Shown here: in pieces, positions 12,870 through 49,850 of the stretch
Numbering within the stretch: the first letter of the stretch is position 1
Layout: every line of letters starts with the position of its first letter
DNA from: Thermoanaerobacter ethanolicus JW 200
GTDB taxonomy: Bacteria; Bacillota; Thermoanaerobacteria; Thermoanaerobacterales; Thermoanaerobacteraceae
Assembly: GCF_003722315.1 (NCBI RefSeq)
Contig: NZ_CP033580.1
Location: 2,260,501 to 2,324,500 of the forward strand
DNA length: 64,000 nt
Direction of reading: 5' to 3'
The notes under the pieces: generated by a model
Database searches by the model: none
Told to the model about the DNA's origin: nothing
Seen by the model: only the letters and a program-made list of their open reading frames with translations
Made by a program: the position numbers and the translations under genes

Positions 12870-13523
12870 TTACGGTAAATTATTCATAAATGTTTCTAAT
12901 ATTAGCACTGATGAAGCTGCACCCGGATCAAGGTGTCCTATTGCCCTTTCTCCAAGTCTCATTGCTCTACCCTTCTTTGCTATCAATGGGATAGTAGATT
13001 CTGCACCTTTCTTAGATGCTTCTACAAACATCTCAAATGCTTTTTTGGGCTCTATATTTTCTTCTATAGCCTTTGTAAAAGCATCCAACCCCGGCCTTAA
13101 AGCGTCGACCATTGTTTTTTCTCCTATTACAGCTTTACCTCTCATTTCAACCGATTCTATTGCCACTTTAAACATATTGTAAAAAACTTCAAAATTAACT
13201 TCTTCTTTATTTTCTGCAGGTTCTCCAAATTTCATAAAAAAACCTCCATATAATGGTCCTGCAGCACCACCAACTTTAGATAATAAAGCCATACCTACTT
13301 TTTTAAAGAAAAACGTTATATTTTTTTCTTTCCATTCTGCTAAATTTCTCATAACCTCTCTAAATCCTATACTAAGATTTACGCCATGATCACCATCACC
13401 TATTTCTGAATCCAATTTAGTTAAATAATCTTTTTGTTGTTCTATAACTTCCGCTAAATTTTCAATAACTTTTATGAAGTAAGATTTTTCAAGTATGTAA
13501 TTCTTATACATGACAATTTTCAC
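12870..13523 (-). CDS. dhaL: Dihydroxyacetone kinase subunit DhaL
   Basis: 217 residues if read from GTG at 13523. The ATG at 13511 is also possible and better spaced from the AAGGGAG site. The ADP/Mg-binding motif D-S-E-I-G-D-G-D-H-G-V-N (about 40-50), G-G-A-A-G-P-L-Y-G and the late L-G-E-R-A-x-G-H-x-D-P-G-A are all in place. In PTS-dependent systems DhaL holds tightly bound ADP that is rephosphorylated by DhaM and passes phosphate to dihydroxyacetone on DhaK. It is the last gene of the catabolic cluster, 88 bp after dhaK, with a hairpin in the gap. Confidence 0.93.
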   Translation of the reverse strand: MKIVMYKNYILEKSYFIKVIENLAEVIEQQKDYLTKLDSEIGDGDHGVNLSIGFREVMRNLAEWKEKNITFFFKKVGMALLSKVGGAAGPLYGGFFMKFGEPAENKEEVNFEVFYNMFKVAIESVEMRGKAVIGEKTMVDALRPGLDAFTKAIEENIEPKKAFEMFVEASKKGAESTIPLIAKKGRAMRLGERAIGHLDPGAASSVLILETFMNNLP

Positions 13524-13610: not shown

Positions 13611-14606
13611 TTACTTGATGACACAATAAGGAGTATCGCAAGGATAATCTAATAGCTCTTTCAATTCTTTGTCTAATTTCATTAGAGTAACTGACATGCC
13701 TACCATATCCATTGTAGTAGCATATGCTCCCACGAATGACCTATAAATCTTAATTTCGCTTTGTTCTAGAATCTGAGCTACTTTTCTAAAACAAATATGT
13801 AAGTCCATTAGCGGAGTAGCTCCTAAACTATTTACAAGTACTGCTACTTCATCTCCCTTACTAAACGGTAAGTCAGGTAATATATGATTCATTATTTCAT
13901 CAATTACCTTATCAGCTTCCTGTAGTTTACCTCTTCTAACGCCTGGTTCACCATGTATACCCATGCCTATTTCCATAAGTCCTTCCTCTAATTCAAACAT
14001 TGGTTTACCTGTTGATGGATGTGTTGCTGCTGCAAGTGCAACTCCCATTGTTCTTGTGTTGTCATTTGCTTTTATTGCAGCAGCTTTTACTTCATCCAAA
14101 TCTGCACCCGTAGCTGCTTTAGCACCTGCTATCTTGAATACAAAGAAATCTCCTGCAATTCCTCTCCGATCTTTAATATTCGCTGAAGAAGCCACATCAT
14201 CAGTAACCAAAACCGTCTCAACTCTAATTCCATCTGCAGCTGCCATTTCAACTCCCATGTCAAAATTCATTACATCTCCTGCATAATTTCCATATAAATA
14301 TAGGCATCCACATCCTGCATCTACAGCTTTAACTGCATTATAGCATGGCTCTGGAGAAGGAGAAGTATTGATATTTCCTATAACCGCTGCATCTGCAAAA
14401 TTTTCGCCAACATATCCTAAGAATAGCGGTTCATGCCCTGAACCTCCTCCTATAATTATCCCTACCTTGTTTTTCACTGGAGCCCTTTTATAAACTACTA
14501 CACGTCCATCATTTTCAAGTAATTTTACATGTTTATCATGAGCTTTACAAAACCCTTCCAGCATTTCCTCCACCACGTCATACGGATTATTAATTAATCT
14601 TCTCAT
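13611..14606 (-). CDS. dhaK: Dihydroxyacetone kinase subunit DhaK
   Basis: 331 residues, normal length. The N-terminus M-R-R-L-I-N-N-P-Y-D-V-V-E-E-M-L-E-G and G-G-G-S-G-H-E-P-L-F-L-G are DhaK hallmarks. The substrate-binding His, which forms the hemiaminal with dihydroxyacetone, is in M-G-I-H-G-E-P-G near residue 218. It makes dihydroxyacetone phosphate for glycolysis. The start has a GAAAGGAG site. Its neighbours are the DhaM remnant upstream and dhaL downstream, the usual set for phosphotransfer from PEP via EI/HPr. Confidence 0.95.
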   Translation of the reverse strand: MRRLINNPYDVVEEMLEGFCKAHDKHVKLLENDGRVVVYKRAPVKNKVGIIIGGGSGHEPLFLGYVGENFADAAVIGNINTSPSPEPCYNAVKAVDAGCGCLYLYGNYAGDVMNFDMGVEMAAADGIRVETVLVTDDVASSANIKDRRGIAGDFFVFKIAGAKAATGADLDEVKAAAIKANDNTRTMGVALAAATHPSTGKPMFELEEGLMEIGMGIHGEPGVRRGKLQEADKVIDEIMNHILPDLPFSKGDEVAVLVNSLGATPLMDLHICFRKVAQILEQSEIKIYRSFVGAYATTMDMVGMSVTLMKLDKELKELLDYPCDTPYCVIK

Positions 14607-14645: not shown

Positions 14646-15030
14646 TTATTTACTCTTTTGTTTTCTTCTGCTGCATGAATAAATTTCGTTTTTATTATTA
14701 GTAATTGAAGCTTGTATAACAGTTGCTATTGTTCCTACAGCCAAAGGTTCATCTACAAGTATAATTTTTTTCTTAATTCCTCATTTAGCATATCTAACAC
14801 CATTTGAGTCGCCATAATAGAACTTCCTATATCTGCAAAAATAAAGATATTGTCACCATCATAAATTCCTCTATTACCTTTTTTATTTTTAAAGGATTAG
14901 TTCCTATACGCTCATCTTCCGTACCACTAATTGGTATTAACTTGGATTGTTTATTATTCATTTGTTCAGCTATCTCTACAACACCCTCAGCAACCTTTTT
15001 GCTATGTGATACTATTATAAAGACTGCCAT
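14646..15030 (-). pseudogene. dhaM: DhaM (PTS EIIA-type phosphotransferase), frameshifted
   Basis: The first 60 residues (MAVFIIVSHSKKVAEGVVEIA) contain S-H-S in place of the canonical V-S-H-S-x-x-[IL]-A, and match the EIIA-mannose fold of DhaM. At about 14850 the frame leaves for MMVTISLFLQI and stops. A shifted frame continues with GDNIFIFADIGSSIMATQMV, VDEPLAVGTIATVIQAS and a stop at 14646, completing a domain of about 127 residues. The shift lies around GAATTTATGATGG. Without it DhaM would be normal. If real, phosphate transfer to DhaL must use another DhaM or be lost. Confidence 0.8.
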
Positions 15031-15180: not shown

Positions 15181-16710
15181 TCACAGTTCGCTTATTTTAT
15201 CATTAACTTTCTTTAATGCATAATATATTTCCCTATATATATCGTAAACTTTTTCATATTTGCTCTTATTTTCAGCAATTGGCACAGTTCTAGTTTCTAT
15301 TTTTAGAAGTTTTCTTGCTGCTTCTTTAACTGATGGCCAGAAACCCGCTCCTACCCCTGCAAGTATAGCCGCACCATATGATCCCCCTTCGCCACTGTAA
15401 CTCACTGTAACAACTTCTGTACCTAATATATCTGCTTGGATTTGTCTCCATTTAGGATTTATAGCTCCTCCTCCACTTACTCTAACCTGTGTGAGGGGAA
15501 CACCTAATGTTTCAATTAATTTTAATGCATCCTTCAAGCTGAAAACAATGCCTTCTAACACAGCTCTTACAAACGCTCTTTTATCATGCATAACATTTAT
15601 TCCAACAAAAACACCTCTTGCATTTGGATCAGTGTAAGGGCATCTTTCACCTACTATATATGGAGTAAACAATAATCCATTAGCCCCTACCTCAACTTGC
15701 ATAGCTTCATTCACTAAAATGTTATATGCATCTTCTCCGCTCAGATTTGCAATAATTTTTTCTTCGAGACCAAATGAATCTCTAAACCATTTGAAAGACC
15801 CGCCAGCCGCAAGGGTACATCCGAAAATATTCCATTCTCCTGGTACTCCACCTCTAAAAAGTTGTAAGGAACCTCCTGGATTGCGTCCAAATTTTGAAAG
15901 AGCAACGGAAGCAATTCCTGCTGTACCAATTATAAGCATCGCTATTCCTTCTTCAGTTGCTCCAGTTCCTACTGCCTGAGCTAATACATCTCCAGCTCCG
16001 CCTACTACTGGGGTACCTTCTTTTAAGCCTAATATTGAAGCTGCTTCAGAAGTTAAATGTCCACTTATTTCTGGACTTTCTACTACATCTGGGAAAATGC
16101 TCTTCTTTATTTCAAGCAAATTTATTAAATCATCTGACCATTTATTTTTCTCAACATCATATAAGCAGGTACCACTTGCATCAGAAACATCCGTAGCAAT
16201 TTTTCCTGTTAATTTATATCTAATATAATCTTTAGCTATTACAAATTTATCTATTTTTTCATAATTTTCTGGTTCTACTTCTTTAATCCACAAAATTTTC
16301 CCAATAGTATATCCAGGTAAAGCAGTATTTGCAACATAGTCTATTAACTTATCTTCTCCTCCAACTTTGTTATGAACCTCATCACATTGTTTTCCAACAC
16401 GATTGTCATTCCACATTATAGCATTTCTTATGACTTTTCTATTTTTATCAAGTGGTACTAGAGTATGCATTTGACCGCTCAATCCAATCGCTGCTATTTC
16501 TTCAGGTTTGATTGCAGCTTTTTCTAAAGCCTTCTTTATTGTGTCAACAGTTGCATCCCACCACACTTCAGGGTCACTTTCTGTCCAGCCGGGTCTTGGA
16601 ACAATAAAATCATATTCTTTTGTTGCTTTAGCTACAATTTCACCTGTTTCGTTAACAATTATCGTTTTACATGCAGAAGTACCAACATCAATTCCCAACA
16701 CATATGCCAT
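15181..16710 (-). CDS. xylB: FGGY-family carbohydrate kinase, xylulokinase-like
   Basis: 509 residues. The ATPase-fold motifs are visible: G-I-D-V-G-T-S-A-C-K (phosphate 1), I-G-L-S-G-Q-M-H-T-L-V, M-W-N-D-N-R, G-G-A-G-D-V (substrate Asp), G-T-A-G-I and V-S-G-G-G-A (adenosine). The Q-M-H and W-N-D-N-R blocks are those of xylulokinases, so D-xylulose or a related ketose or polyol is the probable substrate. In this operon the true substrate may be another four- or five-carbon ketose, whose phosphate would feed RpiB, transketolase and transaldolase. A hairpin follows the stop. Confidence 0.85.
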   Translation of the reverse strand: MAYVLGIDVGTSACKTIIVNETGEIVAKATKEYDFIVPRPGWTESDPEVWWDATVDTIKKALEKAAIKPEEIAAIGLSGQMHTLVPLDKNRKVIRNAIMWNDNRVGKQCDEVHNKVGGEDKLIDYVANTALPGYTIGKILWIKEVEPENYEKIDKFVIAKDYIRYKLTGKIATDVSDASGTCLYDVEKNKWSDDLINLLEIKKSIFPDVVESPEISGHLTSEAASILGLKEGTPVVGGAGDVLAQAVGTGATEEGIAMLIIGTAGIASVALSKFGRNPGGSLQLFRGGVPGEWNIFGCTLAAGGSFKWFRDSFGLEEKIIANLSGEDAYNILVNEAMQVEVGANGLLFTPYIVGERCPYTDPNARGVFVGINVMHDKRAFVRAVLEGIVFSLKDALKLIETLGVPLTQVRVSGGGAINPKWRQIQADILGTEVVTVSYSGEGGSYGAAILAGVGAGFWPSVKEAARKLLKIETRTVPIAENKSKYEKVYDIYREIYYALKKVNDKISEL

Positions 16711-16752: not shown

Positions 16753-17103
16753 TTAAACTGTTGCATACAACAATAATCCACCCAATAAACCTCCTAAAAT
16801 TCCTGCCAAAATTGCTGCCCAATTTATTTTTTTGCGATCAAACAAATCAGCTACAAAAGCACCCCAAAATGCCGTCAATGCTTGGTCACTCCATGGTCCT
16901 GGAAGATGGCCACTCATTTGTGGCTCAAAAATCAGCCCTATTCCATGATTAACTAACCACACCGTACCCACTATAAAAAATCCTGCAAGTAAGCCTCCAA
17001 TGCTTTTCCATTCCTCAGCAAGTTTTCCCCACATTAATCCTATTGCCAGTGGAAATAAAATGCCGCCAAATATAGTAGTTACTACATGTTGCCATGTCCA
17101 CAT
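16753..17103 (-). CDS. Small membrane protein, second member of a Lin0368-type putative glycerol transporter pair
   Basis: 116 residues with three or four hydrophobic segments (I-F-G-G-I-L-F-P-L-A-I-G-L-M-W-G, G-G-L-L-A-G-F-F-I-V-G-T-V-W-L-V, A-A-I-L-A-G-I-L-G-G-L-L-G-G-L-L). Conserved-looking polar points are W-S-D-Q-A and D-L-F-D-R-K-K. It begins directly after its partner (stop 17104, start 17103). Pairs like this sit with dhaK/dhaL in the Listeria gol operon and are annotated as putative glycerol transporter subunits. That function is not proven, and I rely on family memory plus context. Confidence 0.6.
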   Translation of the reverse strand: MWTWQHVVTTIFGGILFPLAIGLMWGKLAEEWKSIGGLLAGFFIVGTVWLVNHGIGLIFEPQMSGHLPGPWSDQALTAFWGAFVADLFDRKKINWAAILAGILGGLLGGLLLYATV

Positions 17104-17502
17104 TTATGCATCACTCCTTCTGAATAGATGTAATAAGTAGCCAGCTATTGTAGCTCCTATTAATTCGAGAACAATGGTCACTAAAGCTGGTCCAATACTT
17201 ATTCCATGATATAAGCCATAAGAAGCTCTTACCAGTTCGCCATTTGTTTTTAGTTGTATATTACCCCCCAGCAAAGATGAAAGCCATATGGCAAATGCCA
17301 TATCTATCCATGCACCATCTGGATCATTTGGAAATGCATTTGCATAGTGGTTTAACCACCATGCTGTGGTTATTATAAGTCCTGCTGCAAGCCATCCACC
17401 AAGCCAATGCCAATGAGCTAATGCTGAAGGCCATATTGTGAATACACCGTATCCAGCAAAAGCACCTGTAATTGCTCCTATCAAAATTCTCGACAGCTTC
17501 AT
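17104..17502 (-). CDS. Small membrane protein, Lin0368-type putative glycerol transporter subunit
   Basis: 132 residues with four hydrophobic helices and many Trp and His: W-P-S-A-L-A-H-W-H-W-L-G-G-W-L-A-A-G and T-A-W-W-L-N-H-Y-A-N, then P-N-D-P-D-G-A-W-I-D-M-A. The length, helix count and Trp/His belt match the Lin0368 family beside dihydroxyacetone kinase genes. If a transporter, the pair could admit a small uncharged polyol. It carries no ATPase or PTS domain. Its upstream gap (17503-17677) holds a long hairpin but no further gene. Confidence 0.65.
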   Translation of the reverse strand: MKLSRILIGAITGAFAGYGVFTIWPSALAHWHWLGGWLAAGLIITTAWWLNHYANAFPNDPDGAWIDMAFAIWLSSLLGGNIQLKTNGELVRASYGLYHGISIGPALVTIVLELIGATIAGYLLHLFRRSDA

Positions 17503-17677: not shown

Positions 17678-19132
17678 TTAAATGAAGTAATGTATCCTTA
17701 CATGTTTTTGGATTAAATACTCATGCAAGCCCTCAGGACCATGCTCTGCTCCTAAACCACTATCCTTCCATCCACCATATGGAGCATTAATTACTCCCGC
17801 ATCTACATTATTAATAGCAACATTACCTGCCTGAATCTCTTGTGCACAACGTTTAGCTATGTTCATATTATTTGTATATACTATTGCTGCTAAACCATAA
17901 TTAGTATCATTTGCTAATTGTATTGCTTCATCTATGTTATTAAATGGCATAACTCCAACCGCCGGACCAAATGTCTCTTCGCGCATTATCAGCATATCAT
18001 GGTTAACATCACGAACAATAGTTGGTTCATAGAAAAATCCTTTTTCAAATTTTGGGCCTGACGGTCTTTTACCTCCGCACACTATTTTAGCACCTTTAGC
18101 TACAGCATCGTTTACATGACGTTCAACTTTTTCGACGCCTGCTTTTGTACACATAGGCCCCATATCTACATTTTCGTCTATGAGACTATTCCCGACGACC
18201 AGTTTTTTTGTCTTTTCAGCAAATTTTTCAAGAAAAGTCTCATATATTTCTCTTTCTACATATATTCTGTTTACCGCAATGCAAATCTGGCCAGCATTCC
18301 TAAAACTACGCCTGACAGCCCCCGTAACAGCAGCATCTAAATTAGCATCTTTAAAAACAATCATTGGTAAACTGCCACCAAGTTCAAGAGTTACTTTCTT
18401 TATACCTGAAGAAGCACTCATTTTTAAAATTTCTTTTCCTGTTTCTGTAGAACCGGTAAAGGCAACACGCTTAACCAATGGATTTTCTATTAATGCAGGC
18501 CCTACAGTTCCTCCAGAACCTGTTATTACATTTAAAACCCCTTCTGGTACTCCTGCATCCACTAAACATTCAACAAATTTTAAAGGAGAAAGAGGAGTTT
18601 CACTTGGCAATTTAGCTACTATCGTACAGCCAGATGCCAACGCACCTCCTATTTTCCATGCCAGCAGTTCAATTGGATAATTCCATGGAGTAATAGCTGC
18701 AGCAACTCCAATAGGTTCGTATACAACTATACTTTCTGTATCCTTTTCTTCATTTGCTATTACACGTCCATAAATTCTTTCACCTTCTTCTGCATAATAT
18801 CTAAGAATTTCTGCTCCTTTTTCTACTTCTCCCTTGGCTTCTTTTACTGGCTTACCCAATTCTTCTGTCATAGTTCTAGCAATTTTTTCAGAACGTTGAA
18901 GCACTATTTCAGAAGCTTTTCGAAGAATTTTACTCCGTTGAAATGGATTTTCCTTTTTCCATTTTAGGAAAGCCTCATGCGCTTTTAAAATTGCTTCTTC
19001 GACATCTTCTTTAGTAGCTGCTGGAACAGACGCAAACACCTCTTCTGTGGCAGGATTTACCACTTCTATTATTCCGCCCTTTTTTGCATCTACCCATTTT
19101 CCACCTATTAGCATTTTATAGTGCTGTACCAT
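17678..19132 (-). CDS. NAD(P)-dependent aldehyde dehydrogenase
   Basis: 484 residues, the family's normal size. Motifs in order: P-W-N-Y-P (about 150), the cofactor loop G-S-T-E-T-G-K, E-L-G-G (general base Glu), N-A-G-Q-I-C (nucleophile Cys near 283) and E-E-T-F-G-P. It resembles lactaldehyde, glycolaldehyde or succinate-semialdehyde dehydrogenases and not the CoA-acylating type. It starts directly after the second cupin (stop 19133) with a GAGGAGGAG site. In this pathway it may oxidise an aldehyde released by an aldolase, such as glycolaldehyde or glyceraldehyde. The exact substrate cannot be read from sequence. Confidence 0.92.
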   Translation of the reverse strand: MVQHYKMLIGGKWVDAKKGGIIEVVNPATEEVFASVPAATKEDVEEAILKAHEAFLKWKKENPFQRSKILRKASEIVLQRSEKIARTMTEELGKPVKEAKGEVEKGAEILRYYAEEGERIYGRVIANEEKDTESIVVYEPIGVAAAITPWNYPIELLAWKIGGALASGCTIVAKLPSETPLSPLKFVECLVDAGVPEGVLNVITGSGGTVGPALIENPLVKRVAFTGSTETGKEILKMSASSGIKKVTLELGGSLPMIVFKDANLDAAVTGAVRRSFRNAGQICIAVNRIYVEREIYETFLEKFAEKTKKLVVGNSLIDENVDMGPMCTKAGVEKVERHVNDAVAKGAKIVCGGKRPSGPKFEKGFFYEPTIVRDVNHDMLIMREETFGPAVGVMPFNNIDEAIQLANDTNYGLAAIVYTNNMNIAKRCAQEIQAGNVAINNVDAGVINAPYGGWKDSGLGAEHGPEGLHEYLIQKHVRIHYFI

Positions 19133-19522
19133 CTATATCTCCTCCTCATTCACTTTACCAGTTACCCATACAACAACTAGCGGAATATTGCCTACCTGTC
19201 GAGTAGTGTGAAATTCTCTTGGCGGAACATATAATGCATCCCCTGGCTTTATTGGAAATTCGTCATTCCCTACAACCATCACTCCTTCGCCTTGTACTAC
19301 AAAGTATACTTCTTCCTCATCATGTGCATGACCTGTTGTAGTCCCTGTGGGATATATTATCGTATACCCCATCTTTAAACGCCTAGAAGGCGAATTCTCT
19401 GGATCAACCAACCAGTAAGTATCTCTTAGCGTTGGCTTCTCCCTGTTCTTCACCCATGCCCTTAATGACCTCGTTGCATCTACATCCGGTTCCTTAGAAT
19501 TAACATTTACTACATATTTCAT
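19133..19522 (-). CDS. Small cupin protein, copy A
   Basis: 129 residues forming one double-stranded beta-helix. Metal-binding cupin motif 1 is visible as G-T-T-T-G-H-A-H-D-E-E-E-V-Y-F-V (two His, one Glu), motif 2 as P-G-D-A-L-Y-V-P-P-R-E-F-H-T-T (His). Cupins of this size are sugar isomerases, lyases or sensors. It is nearly identical to the next upstream gene; only the last residues differ (VNEEEI versus LDENEI). The duplicate lies between a D-2-hydroxyacid dehydrogenase and the aldehyde dehydrogenase, so an isomerase or lyase step is possible. No function is established. Confidence 0.85.
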   Translation of the reverse strand: MKYVVNVNSKEPDVDATRSLRAWVKNREKPTLRDTYWLVDPENSPSRRLKMGYTIIYPTGTTTGHAHDEEEVYFVVQGEGVMVVGNDEFPIKPGDALYVPPREFHTTRQVGNIPLVVVWVTGKVNEEEI

Positions 19523-19564: not shown

Positions 19565-19954
19565 CTATATTTCATTCTCATCTAGTTTACCAGTCACCCA
19601 TACAACAACTAGTGGAATATTGCCTACCTGTCGAGTAGTGTGAAATTCTCTTGGTGGAACATATAATGCATCCCCTGGCTTTATTGGAAATTCGTCATTC
19701 CCTACAACCATCACTCCTTCGCCTTGTACTACAAAGTATACTTCTTCCTCATCATGTGCATGACCTGTTGTAGTCCCTGTGGGATATATTATCGTATACC
19801 CCATCTTTAAACGCCTAGAAGGCGAATTCTCTGGATCAACCAACCAGTAAGTATCTCTTAGCGTTGGCTTCTCCCTGTTCTTTACCCATGCCCTTAATGA
19901 CCTCGTTGCATCTACATCCGGTTCCTTAGAATTAACATTTACTACATATTTCAT
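19565..19954 (-). CDS. Small cupin protein, copy B
   Basis: 129 residues, a tandem duplicate of the gene at 19133-19522. The proteins match at every position except the C-terminal few residues, and the upstream leader (ATAAATATATTCCCCCTTT on the plus strand) is repeated as well. The same G-H-A-H...E and late F-H-T-T metal motif is intact. Both copies have their own ribosome site, so both are probably translated. The near absence of silent differences points to recent duplication or ongoing gene conversion. Confidence 0.85.
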   Translation of the reverse strand: MKYVVNVNSKEPDVDATRSLRAWVKNREKPTLRDTYWLVDPENSPSRRLKMGYTIIYPTGTTTGHAHDEEEVYFVVQGEGVMVVGNDEFPIKPGDALYVPPREFHTTRQVGNIPLVVVWVTGKLDENEI

Positions 19955-20125: not shown

Positions 20126-21100
20126 TTATATATATCCATTTTCTTTTAAGCATTTGTAATTATAAATATATTTTGGTTGACGGCCTTCAAAATAATCAAT
20201 AACGGCTTGGACAGCTTCTACTGCCATACGTACAGTCGCTTCTTTTGTTAGAGCTGCTGAATGAGGCGATAGTATTACATTCTCAAGTCTTAATAATTCA
20301 TTATCGCTTGATGGTGGCTCTTGCTGAAACACATCAAGACCTGCTCCTGCGATCCTTTTTTCTTTTAAAGCCTCAATCAAAGCTTGTTCGTCTATTACTG
20401 TTCCTCTTGCCGTATTTATTAAATAAGCTGTATGCTTCATAGAATATATAAGCTCTCTCGTTATCATTCCTCTTGTCTCAGGTATATCAGGACAATGCAA
20501 CGTTACAAAATCTGATTCTTTAAATAGTTCCTCAAGCGTGTCAACAAATTTATAATCATAACCCCTAAACTTTTCTTTTACATATGGATCATAAGCAACT
20601 ATTTTCATTCCCAATCCATCATGGCACTTTTTTGCAACTAAACTTCCTATATTCCCCATTCCAACAATTCCAAGTACTTTCCCTTCTATCTCCACTGAAA
20701 TATTAGAGTTCCTCGCTCCCCAATTGCCACTGCGAACAGCTTTATCCATTAAACTTAACTGTTTTGCTAAATTTAGTATCATTGCTATTGTGTGTTCTGC
20801 TACAGATAAATTATTTACTGCTGGCAAATTACAAACCAAGATACCTTTTTCTGTTGCTGCATTTACATCTATATTATCAACTCCTGCCCCTGTCCTCGAT
20901 ATTATCTTTAAATGTGGAGCATTCTCGATTACTTCCCTTGTAATCTTTGATCTAGTTCTTAAAATAATAGCATCTACATCTTTTACCATAGATATAAGCG
21001 TTTGTTGACTTGTATCAGGTGCTGTAACAATTTCAAATTTTCCCTCTAATAACTTTCTTCCCTCTGGATGTATCTCCTCTGAAAGCAACACTTTTTTCAT
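20126..21100 (-). CDS. D-2-hydroxyacid dehydrogenase (SerA-like)
   Basis: 324 residues. The Rossmann motif G-I-V-G-M-G-N-I-G (about 147-155) is clear, as are the catalytic Arg in N-T-A-R-G, the Glu in Q-E-P-P and the His in S-P-H-S-A-A. There is no C-terminal ACT domain, so a regulatory serine-biosynthesis enzyme is unlikely. It overlaps the DapA-family gene by four bases (ATGA), tying the two together. It may reduce or oxidise a 2-oxo acid such as hydroxypyruvate, glyoxylate or a sugar acid. A 171-bp gap without a gene follows. Confidence 0.9.
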   Translation of the reverse strand: MKKVLLSEEIHPEGRKLLEGKFEIVTAPDTSQQTLISMVKDVDAIILRTRSKITREVIENAPHLKIISRTGAGVDNIDVNAATEKGILVCNLPAVNNLSVAEHTIAMILNLAKQLSLMDKAVRSGNWGARNSNISVEIEGKVLGIVGMGNIGSLVAKKCHDGLGMKIVAYDPYVKEKFRGYDYKFVDTLEELFKESDFVTLHCPDIPETRGMITRELIYSMKHTAYLINTARGTVIDEQALIEALKEKRIAGAGLDVFQQEPPSSDNELLRLENVILSPHSAALTKEATVRMAVEAVQAVIDYFEGRQPKYIYNYKCLKENGYI

Positions 21101-21996
21101 GCAAGTAGCCCTTCTTCCTGTAAAATTCTTCTAATTTCCTCAATTTCATTTTCATTTAACGGTAATAATGGTAGTCTTGGCTCCATTCCATAATAACCTA
21201 ACCAATTCATTGCTACTTTAACAGCTGTTACTCCACCTTTGCCGGATATTTTTTCATTAATTTTACAAAGTCTGTTACTTAGTTCTTCTGCTTCTTGATA
21301 CTTGCCATCATTAAATAATTCTTGAATTTCACAGCAAAGGTCAGGCAGGTAATTTGCCATTGAAAGAACACCGCCTATAGCTCCTTTTTTTAGACCGTCC
21401 AAAAATTTATTTATAGAGCCGGAAAGTACATAGAACTCTGCTCCCTTAGGTACAGCATTTACATAATTTCCTATATCTTCTTTTGAAGAATCTTTTATGC
21501 CAACGATATTAGGATGTTGCGCAAGTACAGAAATTGCTCGAGGAGAAATTAATACTCCATTTGCAGATCTGGGAATGCAATAAATTGTTATCGGAATAGG
21601 AGATTTATCAGCAACTTCAGTATAAAATTTGATTAATGCTTCATCAGTCATTTTACTAGCAAAATAATGAGGTGTAAGAACACTGGCAAAATCAACTCCA
21701 AAATCTGCTACTTTTTTAGTAAATTCTATTGTAGCCCATGCTGATTCTCTTCCTGTGCCAGCAAGTAAAGTTTTATCTTTTGATTTACTCTTTGCAACTG
21801 TCTTTATAACTTTAATTGCCTCTTCATCTGTTAAACTTCTAAATTCGCCATTGCTTCCTAAGCATAAATAACCTTTTAATTTAGAACTATTTAATTTCTG
21901 AATATTCTCTTTCAACTTTTCATAATCAATTTCTTGATTAACAAAAGGAGTTACAAGTGGTGCAAATACTCCTGTAAGTTTTTCTCTTATACTCAT
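21097..21996 (-). CDS. DapA-family (class I pyruvate) aldolase or lyase
   Basis: 299 residues forming a TIM barrel. Family motifs: V-T-P-F near 17-20, L-G-S-N-G-E-F (the GTTGE site as GSNGE), a Y-C-I-P segment with the catalytic Tyr, and V-G-I-K-D-S-S (Schiff-base Lys about 164). Substitutions in G-S-N-G-E and the C-terminal region resemble 4-hydroxy-2-oxoglutarate or 2-keto-3-deoxy-sugar-acid aldolases more than lysine-pathway DapA. It starts the second sigma-54 transcription unit (promoter 22075-22091) and is translationally coupled to the dehydrogenase. Expected products are pyruvate plus an aldehyde, which fits the aldehyde dehydrogenase downstream. Confidence 0.88.
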   Translation of the reverse strand: MSIREKLTGVFAPLVTPFVNQEIDYEKLKENIQKLNSSKLKGYLCLGSNGEFRSLTDEEAIKVIKTVAKSKSKDKTLLAGTGRESAWATIEFTKKVADFGVDFASVLTPHYFASKMTDEALIKFYTEVADKSPIPITIYCIPRSANGVLISPRAISVLAQHPNIVGIKDSSKEDIGNYVNAVPKGAEFYVLSGSINKFLDGLKKGAIGGVLSMANYLPDLCCEIQELFNDGKYQEAEELSNRLCKINEKISGKGGVTAVKVAMNWLGYYGMEPRLPLLPLNENEIEEIRRILQEEGLLA

Positions 21997-22247: not shown

Positions 22248-23174
22248 TTATTCTATAGCTTCCACATCTTTATTTCCCATTGCAAAACTTCTTTTATTAA
22301 TAAGTTTTAATATCTCTGGTGCTTTATTAGTAGCATTCAATAGTTGTATTTTTTCTTTTACAGTCTTTTTTACATTTTCTCTTGCTACGGCACCATATTT
22401 TCTAACATCAACTAAATCCGGGTTATTTGATAATTTTTCCCTTAAAGCATGGGTAAAAGCCTTATTTAATTCTGTAGCAAAATTAACTTTTGAAATCCCA
22501 GCTTTTACTGCTTGAATAACAGAGTCATCCATTACTCCAGAAGCACCATGAAGTACTAATGGTATTTTTACCTTGTCTTTTATTCGTGCTATTCTTTCAA
22601 TATCTAATTGCGCAGATTGAACTTTCATTCTGTGAGCGCTTCCCACTGAAATCGCCAGTGAATCTACTCCTGTCTTTTCATAAAATTCTAGAGCTTCTTC
22701 TGGAGTCGTAAGATATTTTTTTACTTCCTCTGGAGAAAGGGGCCCATGAGCTGCATCAGGTATTTTCCCAATTTCCCCTTCTAAAGGAATTCCCGCAGCA
22801 TGTGCTATTTCAACTAATTTTTTTGTTTTTTCTATATTCTCTTCAAACGTAAGAGACGACCCATCAAACATAAGTGATGTAAATCCTGCTTTTAATGCTT
22901 TTATAACTGTAGAAAAGTTTACTCCATGGTCTAAATGGCATACTACAGGTACTGTAGCTTCCTCAGCTAATACTTTAATTAGAGCCGCAAATGATTTCTC
23001 CCCCCCATATGCTATTGCTCCTTCACTTATCTGAATTATCACAGGGGCATTTTCCTCTTCAGCTGCCTCGATTATAGCTTGAACCACTTCCATGTTATAA
23101 GCATTGAAAGCTCCTACTGCAAATCCATTCTCTCTTGCATAAATAAGCATTTCTTTACTTGTTACCAGTGGCAT
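22248..23174 (-). CDS. fba: Class II (zinc) ketose-bisphosphate aldolase
   Basis: 308 residues of the fructose/tagatose-bisphosphate aldolase family. Visible parts: G-A-F-N-A-Y-N near the start, the H-L-D-H-G motif (catalytic Asp and zinc His, about 81-85), E-G-E-I-G with a metal Glu, A-I-S-V-G-S-A-H (zinc His) and L-H-G-A-S-G. It would cleave a ketose (bis)phosphate to dihydroxyacetone phosphate and an aldehyde. Since glycolysis normally has its own enzyme, this operon copy may act on tagatose, sorbose or another ketose phosphate. It sits between the PHP protein and promoter P2. Confidence 0.9.
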   Translation of the reverse strand: MPLVTSKEMLIYARENGFAVGAFNAYNMEVVQAIIEAAEEENAPVIIQISEGAIAYGGEKSFAALIKVLAEEATVPVVCHLDHGVNFSTVIKALKAGFTSLMFDGSSLTFEENIEKTKKLVEIAHAAGIPLEGEIGKIPDAAHGPLSPEEVKKYLTTPEEALEFYEKTGVDSLAISVGSAHRMKVQSAQLDIERIARIKDKVKIPLVLHGASGVMDDSVIQAVKAGISKVNFATELNKAFTHALREKLSNNPDLVDVRKYGAVARENVKKTVKEKIQLLNATNKAPEILKLINKRSFAMGNKDVEAIE

Positions 23175-23187
23175 TATATCAGCTCCT

Positions 23188-24198
23188 TTATATTAGATAT
23201 TCTTTTATGAAATTAAATTCCTGTAATGTAACTCCTGCTTCACCTAGATGTCTTGGGTTAGATACTCCTTTTTTATGATCAGCATGATAATCTGAACCCC
23301 CACTAAAGAATTTTACTTTTGTAGAATATTTTGTTCTAATATACTCCTCAATTTCAAAATCTTTTAAATTTCCCTTATAGCTTGTTTTGCTGTAAAGATA
23401 TCGCGCTTCCATACCGTCGATTCCATGGTTTATAAGCCTTTCTATATATTCTTCTCTTGTTAGATTTCTTCCATCGGGATAATGAATTACTTCATCGATT
23501 AAAAAAGGATGTGCTAGTACTGCCGTTCCACCACATGACTTTATTAAATCAATTGCATCAAATGGACTTATTTTTTCCCTTCTTACATTTAATTCAGGAT
23601 CGTCTCTAACCATTATTTTCGCATCTTTCCATGATGGTGCATATCCCTTTTTGGCCATTAATTCAAATATATGTTTTCTTTCAACTTCGTCTGGATCTCT
23701 ATATCTTATATTTCCATTTTCATCAATATACTTTAATATCTCATTTTCATAGTCAATTGGCATTCCCTTAGCAGTAAGTATTTCACATAGTTTTCTATAT
23801 GCTTCTGTTTTGCTTCTCCTCATCCTTTCTACTACTTCCGCTAACAGTGGATTTTCCCAATCCATGCGATACCCTAAAATATGAACATCATCTACATAGG
23901 TATCGCATGAAAATTCGATTCCTAATACTATTTCTACTCCATGCTGGTGTGCAAATTCCTTTACGCTAATCCTACCTTGAGAAGTATCCAGATAAAGAGG
24001 AGGCGGTACGTCATGGTCTGTAATTGCAACAACTTTAAGGCCACTTTTAGCAGCATTAATAATCAATTCTTCCGGCGAATCATTTCCATCAGAGCGCGTA
24101 GTATGACAGTGCAAATCACAATCATACTTTGCCTTTACTGGAGAAGTAGTCACAATTCCTGGAGCTATTGAACCTTCTGTAAAAGATAATATATACAA
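23188..24198 (-). CDS. PHP-domain phosphoesterase
   Basis: 336 residues. The PHP metal motifs are present: D-L-H-C-H-T-T-R-S-D-G (about 28-38), I-T-D-H-D, G-I-E-F-S, A-V-L-A-H-P and a late G-S-D-Y-H-A-D-H. These proteins hydrolyse phosphate esters such as sugar phosphates or nucleotides with two or three metal ions. It lies 13 bp upstream of the aldolase gene and so is in the same unit. A role as a specific phosphatase for a sugar phosphate in this pathway, or in clearing a dead-end product, is inference. Confidence 0.85.
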   Translation of the reverse strand: MYILSFTEGSIAPGIVTTSPVKAKYDCDLHCHTTRSDGNDSPEELIINAAKSGLKVVAITDHDVPPPLYLDTSQGRISVKEFAHQHGVEIVLGIEFSCDTYVDDVHILGYRMDWENPLLAEVVERMRRSKTEAYRKLCEILTAKGMPIDYENEILKYIDENGNIRYRDPDEVERKHIFELMAKKGYAPSWKDAKIMVRDDPELNVRREKISPFDAIDLIKSCGGTAVLAHPFLIDEVIHYPDGRNLTREEYIERLINHGIDGMEARYLYSKTSYKGNLKDFEIEEYIRTKYSTKVKFFSGGSDYHADHKKGVSNPRHLGEAGVTLQEFNFIKEYLI

Positions 24199-24331: not shown

Positions 24332-25006
24332 TTAATTAATAATTTGTTTTCGTAGTTTTTTAAGATAATAAAATATTAATTTTGTTAAGTTGGTAATTAT
24401 AAAATCCGGCTGCAGAGCAACTATAGACTGTAAATCACCTGTTCCATATGTCACAGCACAGGTATAAACTCCCGCATTTTTCCCACACAAAACATCTACT
24501 TCAGAATCCCCAACGTATAAAGTTTCCTCTGAAATATTATTTATTTTTTTCAATAGCTTCTCTATTATTTCTGAATGAGGCTTTATATTTTCGACATCTT
24601 CCAAGCACAATACAACTGAAAAATATTTATCAAGTTCAAAATGTTTTAAAATTTTTTCTGTTAGAGTTCTACACTTAAGAGTAGCAATTCCAATATTAAT
24701 TTTTCTTTCTTTTAAGAAGTTTAAAGTTTCTTTTACTCCTGGAAATAAAGAAGTATAATTAGTACAAGATTCACTATAAATTTTTTCAAATTTGCTGAAT
24801 ACTCTATCAAACATATGAATATTTTTTTCTCCCAAACCACACTTTATAACTGCTTCAGCACCGTTGCCAATGAAAGATGCTAGTGTTTTTTCAGATAAAG
24901 TGGGAAGATTAAATTCACTAAATGCCTTATTCGCAGCTATAACAATATCCTTTTTTGAATCTATAAGGGTTCCATCTAAATCAAAAATAACTGCTTTAAT
25001 ATCCAA
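24332..25006 (-). CDS. HAD-superfamily phosphatase (Gph/PGP-like)
   Basis: 224 residues. Motif I F-D-L-D-G-T-L-I-D, motif II as the Thr in I-G-I-A-T-L, the Lys in I-K-P-H-S-E-I and motif IV Y-V-G-D-S-E-V-D define a phosphoglycolate-phosphatase-like HAD enzyme with a helical cap. It lies 14 bp after rpiB in the same operon. Possible roles are hydrolysis of a pathway sugar phosphate or repair of 2-phosphoglycolate or a similar side product. The specific substrate is not visible in the sequence. Confidence 0.88.
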   Translation of the reverse strand: MDIKAVIFDLDGTLIDSKKDIVIAANKAFSEFNLPTLSEKTLASFIGNGAEAVIKCGLGEKNIHMFDRVFSKFEKIYSESCTNYTSLFPGVKETLNFLKERKINIGIATLKCRTLTEKILKHFELDKYFSVVLCLEDVENIKPHSEIIEKLLKKINNISEETLYVGDSEVDVLCGKNAGVYTCAVTYGTGDLQSIVALQPDFIITNLTKLIFYYLKKLRKQIIN

Positions 25007-25020
25007 AGTAAATCGCTCCT

Positions 25021-25482
25021 TTATTTAGTCATGCTGCGATATTTTGCATCTATCATTTTAATTTTCTCCACTTTTGGTAAAGAACGTCCTCCTTGAAATT
25101 CTGACTCAAGCCACACATCTACAAGTTTTTTAGCTAGTTCTGGTCCTACTATGACTCCACCCATAGTCATAATTTGTGCATCATTACTTTTACGTGCTCT
25201 TTCTGCAGAATACACATCATGGCATACTGCAGCTCTTACTCCAGGCACTTTATTGGCAACAATAGCCATCCCTATCCCTGTGCCACAAATAAGAATTCCT
25301 CTTTCAAATTCTCCCGATGCAACTCTTTCGGCAAGTGCTACAGCAATATCGGGATAATCCACTGGATTTTTATCATAAACCCCTATGTCAACTACTGCAA
25401 TTCCTTTAGACTGTAGATGTTCTTTAATAACTTCTTTTAAATCAAAACCAAAATGATCACTGCCCAAAATTATCTTCATCAT
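25021..25482 (-). CDS. rpiB: RpiB/LacAB-family sugar-phosphate isomerase
   Basis: 153 residues, the usual size. G-S-D-H-F-G-F-D-L-K, the catalytic Cys in I-C-G-T-G-I-G-M-A-I-V-A-N-K (about residue 67) and R-A-A-V-C-H-D are RpiB hallmarks. It interconverts aldose and ketose phosphates, for example ribose 5-phosphate with ribulose 5-phosphate. RpiB relatives also isomerise allose 6-phosphate and tetrulose phosphates, so in this operon a four-carbon substrate is possible. It is located between transketolase and HAD genes, as in the Listeria gol operon where rpiB follows transketolase and transaldolase. Confidence 0.93.
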   Translation of the reverse strand: MMKIILGSDHFGFDLKEVIKEHLQSKGIAVVDIGVYDKNPVDYPDIAVALAERVASGEFERGILICGTGIGMAIVANKVPGVRAAVCHDVYSAERARKSNDAQIMTMGGVIVGPELAKKLVDVWLESEFQGGRSLPKVEKIKMIDAKYRSMTK

Positions 25483-25491
25483 TTTTCCTCC

Positions 25492-26439
25492 TCACTTAGT
25501 TCTATTTTTAAGAAAATTCTCTATACTTATAGCTATTGTCTCACCATCTAGCCCAAACCTTTTTTTCAACATATCTTCTGAACCTGCCGTTCCAAATCTA
25601 TTTCTTACTCCTAACCTTAATTGTCTAATTTGCGGCCTTTTTTCAGTTAAAAATTCTGCCACTGCACTCCCTAGTCCACCCGTTGTATTGTGATGTTCAA
25701 CAGTAATGATATTATCTACTGAAGATGTAAGCTCCAGTAGCAAATCTTCGTCTAATGGTCTTACAGTAGACATATTTACAAGCGTTACTTTTATACCTCT
25801 TGACTGCAAAATTTCGGAAGCTTTTAAACTATCATATACTGCATTGCCACAAGCAATAATTAAAGCATCTTTTCCCTCTTTTATAACTTCTCCTTTTCCA
25901 ATTTTAAAATCTTTCTTTTTGTCAAAAATTATCGGTTCTTCTTTTCTACCTCTAAGTCGCATATAAACAGGACCATTGTATTCAAATATTGCTTTTGTAG
26001 CAACATAAGCTTCTGCTGCATCAGCTGGATCTATTATCACTATTCCTGGAATTGTTCTAATCACTCCCATGTCCTCTAGTGCTAAATGAGTAAAGCCCAA
26101 CCATGCTGATGAAAATCCTGTATCTGTTCCTATCAATTTAACATTTAATTTACTACCTGCCACATCTACTCTTATTTGTTCTGCTGCTCTAAATGCTAAA
26201 AAATTAGCATATGATGTGACAACAGGTATTTTTCCACAAAGAGCCATTCCAGCAGCTACACTTACCATAGTCTGCTCTGCTATGCCAACATTAAAGCTCC
26301 TTTCCGGAAACTTTTTTATAAAGTCGCCATATCGTGATGCTGAATCCGCTGCAACAGTTACAACATCTGGATTTTTCTCTCCCACCTCAACAATTGCCTC
26401 AGCAAATGATGTTCTAGTTGACTTCTTTAATTCACTCAT
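25492..26439 (-). CDS. Transketolase, C-terminal (pyrimidine-binding) subunit
   Basis: I start at the ATG at 26439 (MSELKKSTRTSFAEAI) with a GGAGGAG site; it overlaps the N-subunit stop by a few bases. About 315 residues. The R-S-F-N-V-G-I-A-E-Q-T-M block carries the Glu that activates thiamine diphosphate. T-D-T-G-F-S-S-A-W-L-G-F-T-H and the C-terminal domain V-E-H-H-N-T-T-G-G-L-G-S-A follow. The split two-subunit form is common in Firmicutes and archaea. Together with the upstream gene it moves two-carbon units between sugar phosphates. Confidence 0.93.
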   Translation of the reverse strand: MSELKKSTRTSFAEAIVEVGEKNPDVVTVAADSASRYGDFIKKFPERSFNVGIAEQTMVSVAAGMALCGKIPVVTSYANFLAFRAAEQIRVDVAGSKLNVKLIGTDTGFSSAWLGFTHLALEDMGVIRTIPGIVIIDPADAAEAYVATKAIFEYNGPVYMRLRGRKEEPIIFDKKKDFKIGKGEVIKEGKDALIIACGNAVYDSLKASEILQSRGIKVTLVNMSTVRPLDEDLLLELTSSVDNIITVEHHNTTGGLGSAVAEFLTEKRPQIRQLRLGVRNRFGTAGSEDMLKKRFGLDGETIAISIENFLKNRTK

Positions 26440-27286
26440 GATAAAGCTCCTCCAATGACATTTCATTTTTTAATTCCTCGTATTGTTCATATGAAAGAAC
26501 TTTATAGTGCCAATCAACCTTATTTTCAGCAATTTTTAAGCCCTTTCCTTTTACAGTATTAGCAATAATAACAGAAGGCTGACCTTTAACAAACGGAATT
26601 TTATTAAAAGCTGTAAGTAACTTTTCTATATCGTGACCATCTATTATTTCTACGCCCCATCCAAAACTTTTCCATTTTTCAGCTAAAGGTTCTAACCGGG
26701 TTATATTTTCTGTAAAATCTCCTAATTGCAACATATTTCTATCTACTATTACAATTAAATTATCTAGTCCATAATAAGCAGCAGTCATGGCTGCTTCCCA
26801 GTTACTTCCTTCCTGTAATTCTCCATCTCCAGTTATTACAAAAACTCTGTATTCTTTTTTGTCCATTCTGGCTGCTAAAGCCATTCCTACTCCTAGAGCT
26901 ATTCCATGTCCTAAAGAACCAGTATTAGCTTCTACACCAGGAAGCTTAATTTCTGGGTGACCCGGAAGCATAGTATCATATTTAGTACAAAAATCTCCTA
27001 ATAATTTTCTTTCAAAAAACCCCATTTGTGAAAGTATAGAATAAAGTGCCAAACATCCATGGCCTTTACTGAGTATTAATCTATCTCTATCAGGCCATTT
27101 TGGATTCTGTGGATCTACCTTTAATACACTTTTATACAAAGTAGCTAAAATTTCTGCTAATGAAAGTGCTGGTCCCAGGTGTCCTGTTCCTGCCCGGGTA
27201 CTCATCCAAATGCAATCTTTTCTTATCAAATCAGCAGTCTGTTTTATCGAATCAATTTCTTCAAAAGTAATGCTCAAAAGAATCAA
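26432..27286 (-). CDS. Transketolase, N-terminal (thiamine diphosphate-binding) subunit
   Basis: 284 residues. The thiamine-diphosphate motif G-D-G-E-L-Q-E-G-S-N-W-E-A (about 156-168, ending with V-D-R-N) is complete, as is S-K-G-H-G near 75. The gene follows the transaldolase after 22 bp and overlaps the C-subunit, so equal synthesis is likely. In a dihydroxyacetone pathway a transketolase can also make or use free dihydroxyacetone, as in dihydroxyacetone synthase. Whether that happens here cannot be told from sequence. Confidence 0.93.
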   Translation of the reverse strand: MILLSITFEEIDSIKQTADLIRKDCIWMSTRAGTGHLGPALSLAEILATLYKSVLKVDPQNPKWPDRDRLILSKGHGCLALYSILSQMGFFERKLLGDFCTKYDTMLPGHPEIKLPGVEANTGSLGHGIALGVGMALAARMDKKEYRVFVITGDGELQEGSNWEAAMTAAYYGLDNLIVIVDRNMLQLGDFTENITRLEPLAEKWKSFGWGVEIIDGHDIEKLLTAFNKIPFVKGQPSVIIANTVKGKGLKIAENKVDWHYKVLSYEQYEELKNEMSLEELYHE

Positions 27287-27308: not shown

Positions 27309-28511
27309 TTAAAACAAACTCCTTACATAATTTTCAAGGTCTATAACAGCTTTTGAAAATTGAGTATAAGTAGTAATAGTAGGTTCAAGTTTTTCAAAAT
27401 CTTCAAGTGGTATTGTAGTTTCGCCATATCCTTCAGCAAAATAGGGAACCCTTAGTAGTTTTTCCATTATCTCATCCGGAACAGATTCTTCACATTTATC
27501 TTCAATTGGTCTGTCCATATACAGCATCATAAATGCTTTTATAAGTTCAGGATTCATAGTGTATACTAAATTACAACCTGCAAGTTTTTCTATATGCCAT
27601 ATATACTGTGTTCCATTTACTTTAGGACTAACTCTGCTGGATGCTACTAACATTTTGCTCGGATAATCTCTCTTAGCCAATATCTTGCATGCTTTTTTTG
27701 TTATAGCAATTCCTGCCCACCTTTTCATTTCTTCGGTTAGTTCTATTCCTCTCTCTTTGGCTTGTTCTTCAAAAATTTTTGCATCTTCAAATCTTCCTAT
27801 CATGATTGTAATCACAGAACGCCACTTAGAATAATCGGTTCCATATTTTTCTCCCAGTGCTTTTCCTTGTTTTACGGCTTCGGCTACTGCCATTATTTGT
27901 GGTAAAGTATAACAAAGAGTAGCATTTGTAGGTATTCCTAGCGCTGTAAGAATATATATTGCTAAAACACCTGCTTTAGTTGTCGGAATTTTGACCATAA
28001 TATTGGGTTGTAATACTTTTAATTCAAGAGCTTGCCTTACCATTTCCTTGGTATCCACTGAAATTCTTGGATCTACCTGTGCTGATACATAACCATATTT
28101 ATAACCTGATTTCTCAAAAAGTGGCATGTAAAGACTTGCACCGCGTTTACACGCTTCTTTGTACGCTTCCCATGTTACTTGGGTATAATCCATTCGAGGA
28201 TTATCCTTTATAATTTCTTGTATAATCTTTGTCCATTCATCTTTCAAATTATCAAATACCGCTTTTGTAAGCGGGGGATTTGTGGTTACTCCTTTAAAAA
28301 CCCAATCTTTTGGATCAGATTCTTGGTCCCACAGCTTTTTTAGCTGAAAGCTTATTAAATCCTTTAAGTCTTTATCTTCTATTGAATTTAAAAAGTCATT
28401 ACACCATTTTTCATAAATTAAAGGATTTGAATCCCACCATAATTCTATATCTGGTGACAATGAGTTAAGCTTTTCCATGGAGCTAGGTTTATAATTTTTG
28501 TTTTTATCCAT
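27309..28511 (-). CDS. Transaldolase-family enzyme, long form
   Basis: 400 residues, longer than the roughly 215-residue FSA/TalC type or the roughly 320-residue TalB type. The barrel motifs are clear: K-G-V-T-T-N-P-P-L (phosphate site), S-A-Q-V-D-P-R, and M-V-K-I-P-T-T-K-A-G with the Schiff-base Lys. N-A-T-L-C-Y-T-L-P-Q follows. A Trp-rich N-terminal extension (D-I-E-L-W-W-D-S-N-P) is unusual. It is the first gene after promoter P1. It may transfer dihydroxyacetone units or release free dihydroxyacetone for DhaKLM; the latter is inference. Confidence 0.88.
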   Translation of the reverse strand: MDKNKNYKPSSMEKLNSLSPDIELWWDSNPLIYEKWCNDFLNSIEDKDLKDLISFQLKKLWDQESDPKDWVFKGVTTNPPLTKAVFDNLKDEWTKIIQEIIKDNPRMDYTQVTWEAYKEACKRGASLYMPLFEKSGYKYGYVSAQVDPRISVDTKEMVRQALELKVLQPNIMVKIPTTKAGVLAIYILTALGIPTNATLCYTLPQIMAVAEAVKQGKALGEKYGTDYSKWRSVITIMIGRFEDAKIFEEQAKERGIELTEEMKRWAGIAITKKACKILAKRDYPSKMLVASSRVSPKVNGTQYIWHIEKLAGCNLVYTMNPELIKAFMMLYMDRPIEDKCEESVPDEIMEKLLRVPYFAEGYGETTIPLEDFEKLEPTITTYTQFSKAVIDLENYVRSLF

Positions 28512-30446: not shown

Positions 30447-30995
30447 ACACAATCACACCTTTTGTAATTCTAATTTGTAAAACAATAAAGATATTCTTAT
30501 TTAATAAATATTTTTCTCTTCATGATTTTATGTTTTAATTCTTTAGGTATTTGTCATTTATAACCTATTATAAAGTAAGAGTTTTTTATTATCCTATTGC
30601 ATTCATTTTTTCTTAACAGAGAAACTTTTAAAAAGCGAACAAAGAAAGTAATATTATAATTAAGAAAAATATTTACAAATTATGTAATGTAATGGAACAC
30701 CTCTTATCGTTAGTGAAGTATTATCCTTCAGAAGAGTGTCAAATAGTTCTTAGGAAAGTTACAGTAACAGCACCGAATATTCCATACATAAATCTTTGTA
30801 GAGGAAATTACAGATGCACACTTGAGACGGTAAGAATGTAGAACAAGTTTTTCTATAGTAAATCAAAATATCGTAAAACGGTTTCAAAATCAATACTCGC
30901 TTACAAATAATTGGCTTTCAATATAAAACAAATATATTTTGTTTTTATCCTTTTTATTAAGCGTATTCACTTTTTATTATATACCATAATAACAA
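30447..30995. other. Intergenic stretch with one short unrecognised frame
   Basis: The first about 150 bp hold the activator's leader and a possible TATAAT-type promoter (TTTATAATAGG on the minus strand near 30565). On the plus strand, ATG at 30691 opens a 49-codon frame (MEHLLSLVKYYPSEECQIVL...) without a clear ribosome site. It is Cys-containing and resembles nothing I know; it may be a gene remnant. Nothing else is supported. Confidence 0.3.
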
Positions 30996-35685: not shown

Positions 35686-35713
35686 TTTATAAAATTAAAA
35701 GGAGGCATATTAA

Positions 35714-49824: not shown

Positions 49825-49850
49825 TTAACAAAAAATAAGGAGTGACACAA

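Follow-up and report, generated by a model that had tools for sequence, protein, structure and literature searches.

The window, a stretch of 64,000 nucleotides from Thermoanaerobacter ethanolicus JW 200, carries two small adjacent genes on its minus strand, here called B and A in the order in which they are read (Table 1). The TAA stop codon of B abuts the ATG of A in the same frame. Both products lie above the curated cut-off of 27 bits for the Pfam family PF21846 (DUF6905), and they are the only such pair in the genome (2.9 Mb, one contig). For neither protein was there an NCBIfam row at E ≤ 1, nor a row at this threshold for PF00230, PF00893 or PF02537, and the NPA motif is absent from both sequences. 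The first-pass annotation had placed the two genes correctly and had described their products as Trp- and His-rich proteins of three to four helices. The abundance of Trp is evident (8 residues in the 116 of A and 8 in the 132 of B), but that of His is only modest (3 and 5, respectively). DSSP assigns three or four helices per subunit in AlphaFold models, in which a long first helix spans two hydrophobic stretches, whereas a plain hydropathy window (19 residues, threshold 1.6) finds three segments in A and only two in B.

Judging by strand and spacing, the minus-strand reading frames between 12870 and 30452 apparently form an operon. Among the 18 ORFs in this range, A and B are the sole multi-helix products by the hydropathy test, two enzymes showing one marginal window each, which agrees with the earlier suggestion that the pair stands in place of a usual transporter in the operon. 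None of these 18 ORFs was recognised as a transport ATPase (17 were scanned with profiles, and the remaining one, cupin copy 1, was judged by eye), and an energy-coupled system with an ATPase nearby was rejected on this ground. The frame of the dhaM-like gene, broken in the window, is intact (131 aa) in the near-identical locus of Thermoanaerobacter sp. A7A (L090). The two cupin genes at 19133-19522 and 19565-19954 are near-identical tandem copies; L090 has a single copy.

Table 1. Genes of the DUF6905 pair and of the surrounding apparent operon (positions in the window).
Feature	Position	Strand	Remarks
DhaL, dihydroxyacetone kinase nucleotide subunit	12870..13523	minus	TIGR02365 227.3 bits, cut-off 138.3
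DhaK, dihydroxyacetone kinase substrate-binding subunit	13611..14606	minus	TIGR02363 383.9 bits, just below cut-off 406.25
dhaM-like gene, broken frame	14646-15030 (first part 14827..15030)	minus	between dhaK and FGGY kinase
FGGY kinase, xylulokinase-type	15181..16710	minus	TIGR01312 XylB 528.8 bits, cut-off 380.25
DUF6905 subunit A	16753..17103	minus	116 aa; PF21846 83.0 bits
DUF6905 subunit B	17104..17502	minus	132 aa, first gene of pair; PF21846 74.1 bits
Aldehyde dehydrogenase family	17678..19132	minus	family-model search
Cupin, copy 2	19133..19522	minus	family-model search
Cupin, copy 1, nearly identical to copy 2	19565..19954	minus	read by eye
D-2-hydroxyacid dehydrogenase family	20126..21100	minus	family-model search
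DHDPS/2-keto acid aldolase family	21097..21996	minus	family-model search
Class II ketose-bisphosphate aldolase	22248..23174	minus	family-model search
PHP-domain protein	23188..24198	minus	family-model search
HAD-family hydrolase	24332..25006	minus	family-model search
RpiB/LacAB-type isomerase	25021..25482	minus	family-model search
Transketolase, C-terminal part	25492..26466	minus	family-model search
Transketolase, N-terminal part	26432..27286	minus	family-model search
Transaldolase/F6P aldolase family	27309..28511	minus	family-model search
Sigma-54-dependent activator with PAS domain, probable regulator	28707..30452	minus	family-model search

Relatives of the pair were collected in two ways. 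PF21846 matched in 16 of 398 genomes of the phylum at E ≤ 0.001, in 14 of them above the cut-off, and a scan of contigs from 84,980 species with one A-type peptide pattern yielded 62 loci, all of them from Bacillota by title or tree label except L075 ('bacterium 42_11'); because a single A-type pattern was used, divergent DUF6905 members or members from other phyla may have been missed. Left out before the 62 pairs were counted were L033 and L034 (partial B), L042, L057 and L071 (A only), L092 (a broken copy), L016 and L017 (no pair, matches below the cut-off), as well as identical duplicates. For both genes the start codon was picked by script, and the truncated A of L061 lacks its start. Wherever both genes are present and whole, they are adjacent with B first, and no solo or fused DUF6905 member was seen in these loci.

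In a tree of these sequences, the 62 A proteins form one clade and the 62 B proteins another (support 100/99), and the alignment of the A profile with the B profile covers 113 columns (E 3.6e-25, 99.7%). By sequence, A and B are paralogues of the single family DUF6905. An unrelated two-subunit transporter was ruled out, since both proteins belong to PF21846 and their profiles align. A His at the end of helix 2 and an Asp at the start of helix 3 are invariant in all 124 A and B sequences, which provides one set per subunit. Among solved structures, a sequence search returned only Ninjurin chains (E 0.47 and 1.1), which we take as noise.

The two paralogues differ in the distribution of their positive charges. 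Lys and Arg (K+R) were counted per protein after cuts at fixed mid-helix anchors, and the charge bias was defined as K+R in the N-tail, loop 2 and C-tail minus K+R in loops 1 and 3. This bias is negative in A of all 62 pairs and positive in B of 61, being zero in B of L086, which predicts opposite orientations of A and B in 61 of 62 non-identical pairs, although the counts are not independent because the pairs are related by descent. In A, the K+R positions are the loop after helix 1 and the stretch between helices 3 and 4; in B, they are mostly the N end and the C tail. Summed over the 62 pairs, antiparallel four-helix subunits would have 518 K+R inside and 111 outside, as opposed to 307 and 322 for parallel ones. 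When only the N-tail is compared with the first loop, a comparison unaffected by the path of helix 3, A conforms in 58 pairs with 4 ties and B in 53 with 9 ties, and neither shows the reverse in any of the 62. Counter to the antiparallel four-helix topology, 79 K+R in the helix 3-4 region of B are placed outside. In the literature, opposite K/R bias distinguishes homologous proteins that pair in antiparallel fashion, YdgE/YdgF among them (PMC3962082). From the charge pattern, A is predicted to be N-out/C-out and B N-in/C-in, and the two are likely an antiparallel pair. The earlier description as a two-protein system thus holds as far as the number of proteins goes but understates the case, as one family is used twice with opposite charge pattern.

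The neighbourhoods of the relatives point predominantly to glycerol. Glycerol kinase (GlpK), which usually partners GlpF, is the product of the next gene at 40 of the 62 loci; one of these FGGY kinases, that of L036, is recognised by the NCBIfam model for GlpK, and the remaining 39 share 66.6-84.3% identity with it. Directly upstream at these 40 loci lies a gene of the GlpP antiterminator cluster (23 loci; one member checked, PF04309), another gene (10 loci), or no same-strand gene within 900 bases (7 loci, of which all but L069 are at a contig end). At 30 of the 40, the kinase is followed by a GlpA-like gene, the names GlpA and GlpB being our own reading of gene clusters 2 and 3: at L031, the GlpA-type member is a DAO-type FAD oxidoreductase that reaches neither the NCBIfam cut-off for GlpA nor that for type 2 glycerol-3-phosphate oxidase, and the GlpB-type member is a pyridine-nucleotide-disulphide oxidoreductase. 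The label 'PTS-EI' for gene cluster 6 proved wrong, its L031 member being an HPr/sigma-54 activator.

Other contexts are rarer. A XylB-like kinase of the window type adjoins the pair at 3 of the 62 loci, and DHA-kinase genes are near it at 8 (DHA/pentose operons), five of which are from Enterococcus. In the Caldanaerobacter group (L075, L080 and L091), the pair follows genes for a GH3 glycosidase, a SIS-domain protein and a GNAT protein, with BadF-type genes in the vicinity, and these GH3/SIS/BadF contexts do not suggest glycerol as the solute. The pair of L089 adjoins DeoC-like genes and has the genome's own glpP-MIP-glpK next to it. Contexts outside these groups are found at L034, L048 and L050 and at the broken copy L092.

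A counterpart of the window pair exists in Listeria innocua, where two adjacent genes annotated as 'hypothetical protein' lie between dhaM2 and dhaK2 in the order B then A. The first scores as B (171.7 bits versus 59.3 with the A profile) and the second as A (149.8 bits versus 62.2 with the B profile), and window A is 47% identical to the latter, which bears out the link to a Listeria pair drawn in the first-pass annotation; we take this pair to be of the Lin0368 type, the name given there. Besides family and gene order, the pair of the dhaM2-dhaK2-dhaL2 region shares with that of the window a place near genes for DHA kinase, triose-phosphate isomerase, rpiB, SDR, F6P aldolase and transketolase. 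Unlike Listeria, the window operon adds the xylulokinase-type FGGY kinase, the aldehyde dehydrogenase and the cupins, and its sigma-54 activator occupies the place of a DeoR-type gene in Listeria. The Listeria gol operon has reportedly been the subject of earlier work, and lmo0349 and lmo0350 are named in a cold-stress transcriptome paper. Searches by name found no mention of DUF6905, Lin0367 or Lin0368, and the literature listings searched held no account of such a two-gene pair, their coverage lying mostly outside subscription journals.

The distribution of MIP-family genes separates the glpK-linked pairs from the rest. Among 51 pair-bearing genomes, a MIP/GlpF match occurs in none of the 37 with a pair beside glpK and in 11 of the 14 where no pair was found beside glpK. 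The genome of L059 is counted among the 37, as L062 in the same assembly is a pair beside glpK; in the genomes of L047, L056 and L064, neither a MIP nor a pair beside glpK was found. Within the phylum sample, a MIP match occurs in 0 of 10 and in 4 of 4 genomes, respectively. Against this stands the finding that only 63 of 176 phylum genomes with a GlpK above the cut-off and no pair have a MIP, and 113 do not, so that the exclusion is support rather than proof. Fisher's test of 0/10 versus 63/176 gives p 0.017 with kinship ignored, and such p-values are too small because the genomes are related. The window genome itself carries, at another place, a MIP gene that immediately precedes glpK, and because of this glpF-glpK the window pair probably serves a solute other than glycerol. 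A putative glycerol facilitator beside glycerol kinase is described for the Clostridia MAG GPF-1 in PMC8027456. Isolate GPF-1 is our L047, probably the same MAG, and its genome has no MIP match; the facilitator described there might be a second DUF6905 pair.

Three pairs, all from Anaerosolibacter (L056, L058 and L059), are found in ars clusters. An arsR gene lies upstream, adjoining the pair in L058 and one gene away in L056 and L059, and in all three a low-molecular-weight phosphatase-type, arsenate-reductase-like gene follows directly downstream. Near the pair are also arsD and arsA in L056, arsA in L059, and ArsP genes in L058 and L059, those ars-locus genes that had no scan of their own being assigned by cluster membership. 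In the A part of the tree, these pairs branch beside the glp pair L062 of the same genus (100/96), from which it seems that a glycerol pair was taken over for an ars role. According to PMC4435449, MIPs occur in ars operons, and As(OH)3 resembles glycerol. Neither of the two ars genomes checked has an Acr3 match; both contain, away from the pair, a single match to the ArsB family (60 and 62 bits), which exceeds the Pfam cut-off of 22.2 but is low for a full-length match, and the ars pair is consequently not the only possible arsenite exit. Upstream of the pair in L056 and L059, arsR is interspersed in alternation with genes for calcineurin-like phosphoesterases.

We consider it rather probable that DUF6905 proteins form an antiparallel heterodimer that acts as a facilitator for glycerol-like neutral solutes and replaces the MIP glycerol facilitator. 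A and B would be inserted into the membrane in opposite directions, and the resulting heterodimer would let small uncharged polyhydroxy molecules pass, in place of a MIP-family glycerol facilitator, with the kinase encoded next door making uptake one-way. Most pairs would carry glycerol and partner glycerol kinase, whereas the three ars-cluster pairs would serve as an exit for As(OH)3, the glycerol look-alike. For the window pair, a C3-C5 ketose or aldose is the probable solute, for instance dihydroxyacetone, since the operon encodes a xylulokinase-type kinase, DhaK/DhaL and pentose-phosphate enzymes. We infer each element of this picture: dimerization, topology, transport, substrate and the absence of an energy cost. 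A role as a GlpF-type entry route is likely, and passive transport by the putative DUF6905 channel is plausible. The facilitator for small polyols entertained in the first-pass annotation is thus the best reading of the contexts, given the glpK neighbour and the MIP exclusion, but its mention of glycerol is doubtful for the window pair in view of the MIP gene upstream of glpK elsewhere and the enzymes of the operon.

EmrE-type antiparallel dimers are proton-coupled, and the DUF6905 pair might likewise be a proton- or ion-coupled carrier, sharing the antiparallel dimer architecture of the small multidrug resistance (SMR) family, with the invariant His and Asp carrying the ion. The complete conservation of these residues, one set in each subunit, would suit such a carrier, as would the transport function of known antiparallel dimers of four-helix proteins, EmrE for example (PMC3962082). 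The glpK partner and the MIP exclusion point instead to a passive-channel role, and the structural matches described below are aquaporin-like; coupling is compatible with all of these, and we regard it as rather unlikely. The resemblance to YdgE/YdgF and to the Fluc/CrcB type, which are also adjacent, homologous, small proteins of about four helices with opposite K/R bias (PMC3962082), does not extend to gene neighbourhoods, nor, for SMR and Fluc/CrcB, to sequence, as the pair has no PF00893 or PF02537 match at E ≤ 1. Very improbable is a reading in which the pair transports nothing and instead anchors or regulates the adjacent kinases (GlpK, DhaKL, FGGY), for example by trapping the solute at the membrane. 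A kinase gene does directly adjoin the pair at most loci, but the partner kinases come from different families, no sugar kinase is among the scanned genes beside the ars pairs, and the 37 genomes without a MIP need another entry route for glycerol.

A further alternative is that A and B are each distantly homologous to one half of a MIP (two helices, then a half-helix and one more helix) and together make up a two-gene aquaglyceroporin. The pair would then be a surviving example of the half-channel whose duplication and fusion gave rise to the MIP family. It is here that the structure models bear. AlphaFold2 models of B-stop-A read-throughs reached pLDDT 74.0 and pTM 0.75 for the window (16 rows, one identical to the query) and 75.9 and 0.76 for L039 (15 rows). 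With Foldseek, 41 of the 50 chains listed for the window model are aquaporins (best E 0.042, TM about 0.3), but only 3 of 50 for the L039 model, and no match for either falls below E 0.001; nor was there a match below this value in a viral structure library. VIA-align, which only re-ranks the Foldseek chains, lists aquaporins in 50 of 50 rows for the window model (Z 5.4-7.0, 141-157 residues, rmsd 3.7-5.1) and in 36 of 50 for L039 (Z up to 7.3), the other listed rows for L039 being BacA, LicB, formate channels and ABC exporters. Z values of 5.4-7.3 are below the trust level for helical bundles and, as the tool warns, may reflect a common arrangement; aquaporins are also numerous in the PDB. 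The match spans both B and A, which in the models fits inverted halves, although the last helix of A lies outside the aligned range in most rows. The structure prediction of the complex proposed in the first-pass annotation thus puts aquaporins first, which speaks weakly for a channel, while the Foldseek E values speak against it.

Profile comparisons gave a similarly divided result. The joint A+B profile (124 sequences) scored 79.6% (E 1.5e-5) and 75.1% (E 2.5e-5) against the halves of 57 MIPs, whereas the best of 14 control pieces from seven other membrane families, CrcB, reached 11.3% among the matches listed, and SMR 0.6%; the best seven rows were considered per query. The control profiles (CrcB 28, SMR 24, FNT 30, PlsY 10, ArsP 5, Amt 29 and BacA 30 sequences, compared with hhalign) were built from the most hydrophobic ORF over each hit as picked by script, without a check by hand. 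None of 100 block-shuffled MIP profiles reached the joint score for either half, nor did any of 150 for half 1 in an earlier run. By the yardstick of the two true MIP halves, which score 96.6% with each other, A alone reaches at most 24% and B alone at most 63% among the matches listed, and the signal is confined to the last helix (up to 85.6%), the preceding stretch remaining below 2% among the matches listed; common descent with the MIP family is therefore possible but unproven. The half-aquaporin plan of three helices and a half-helix would also distribute the K+R evenly (298 inside and 331 outside, versus 518 and 111 for four full helices). In its favour, a median of only 11 residues separates the invariant helix-3 Asp of B from the next charge, which is short for a full helix. 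An apparent correspondence of GAHLNPA in the MIPs with GAWVDMA in the pair was dropped, as this DMA/NPA register shifted with the larger set of 57 MIPs, and the pair has neither NPA motifs nor a PF00230 match. Taken with the low VIA-align Z values, these findings make descent as split half-aquaporins, and with it the two-gene aquaglyceroporin, unlikely. If true, a split aquaglyceroporin would work as an antiparallel heterodimer that passes glycerol and, where it belongs to an ars cluster, arsenite.

Whatever their ancestry, the proposed antiparallel facilitators have much in common with GlpF and the aquaglyceroporins: the place before glpK and in ars clusters (as for AqpS-type MIPs), the probable substrates, the inverted two-part plan and the top structural matches, in addition to the mutual exclusion seen in genomes. 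They differ in comprising two genes without the MIP motifs, in a profile likeness that is weak and limited to one helix, and in charges that suggest eight full helices. If the facilitator reading is right, Bacillota with a glycerol kinase but without GlpF would have a second, unrecognised entry route for glycerol in a very small inverted-repeat form, which would account for glycerol transporters apparently missing from genome reconstructions. It would also give DUF6905, so far uncharacterised in Pfam, a function and provide a natural test case for the origin of inverted-repeat channels from antiparallel pairs.

Two further features of the window were noted. At 10105-10804 on the minus strand, an apparent single gene for an ABC ATPase (read by eye) is divided between two overlapping frames and adjoins a 744-aa ORF that resembles an ABC permease. 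A transposase-like ORF at 34244-35689 (by eye), together with 49497-49828, is about 97% identical in DNA to the piece between dhaK and dhaL in L090, which suggests that a mobile element moved in this region between strains.
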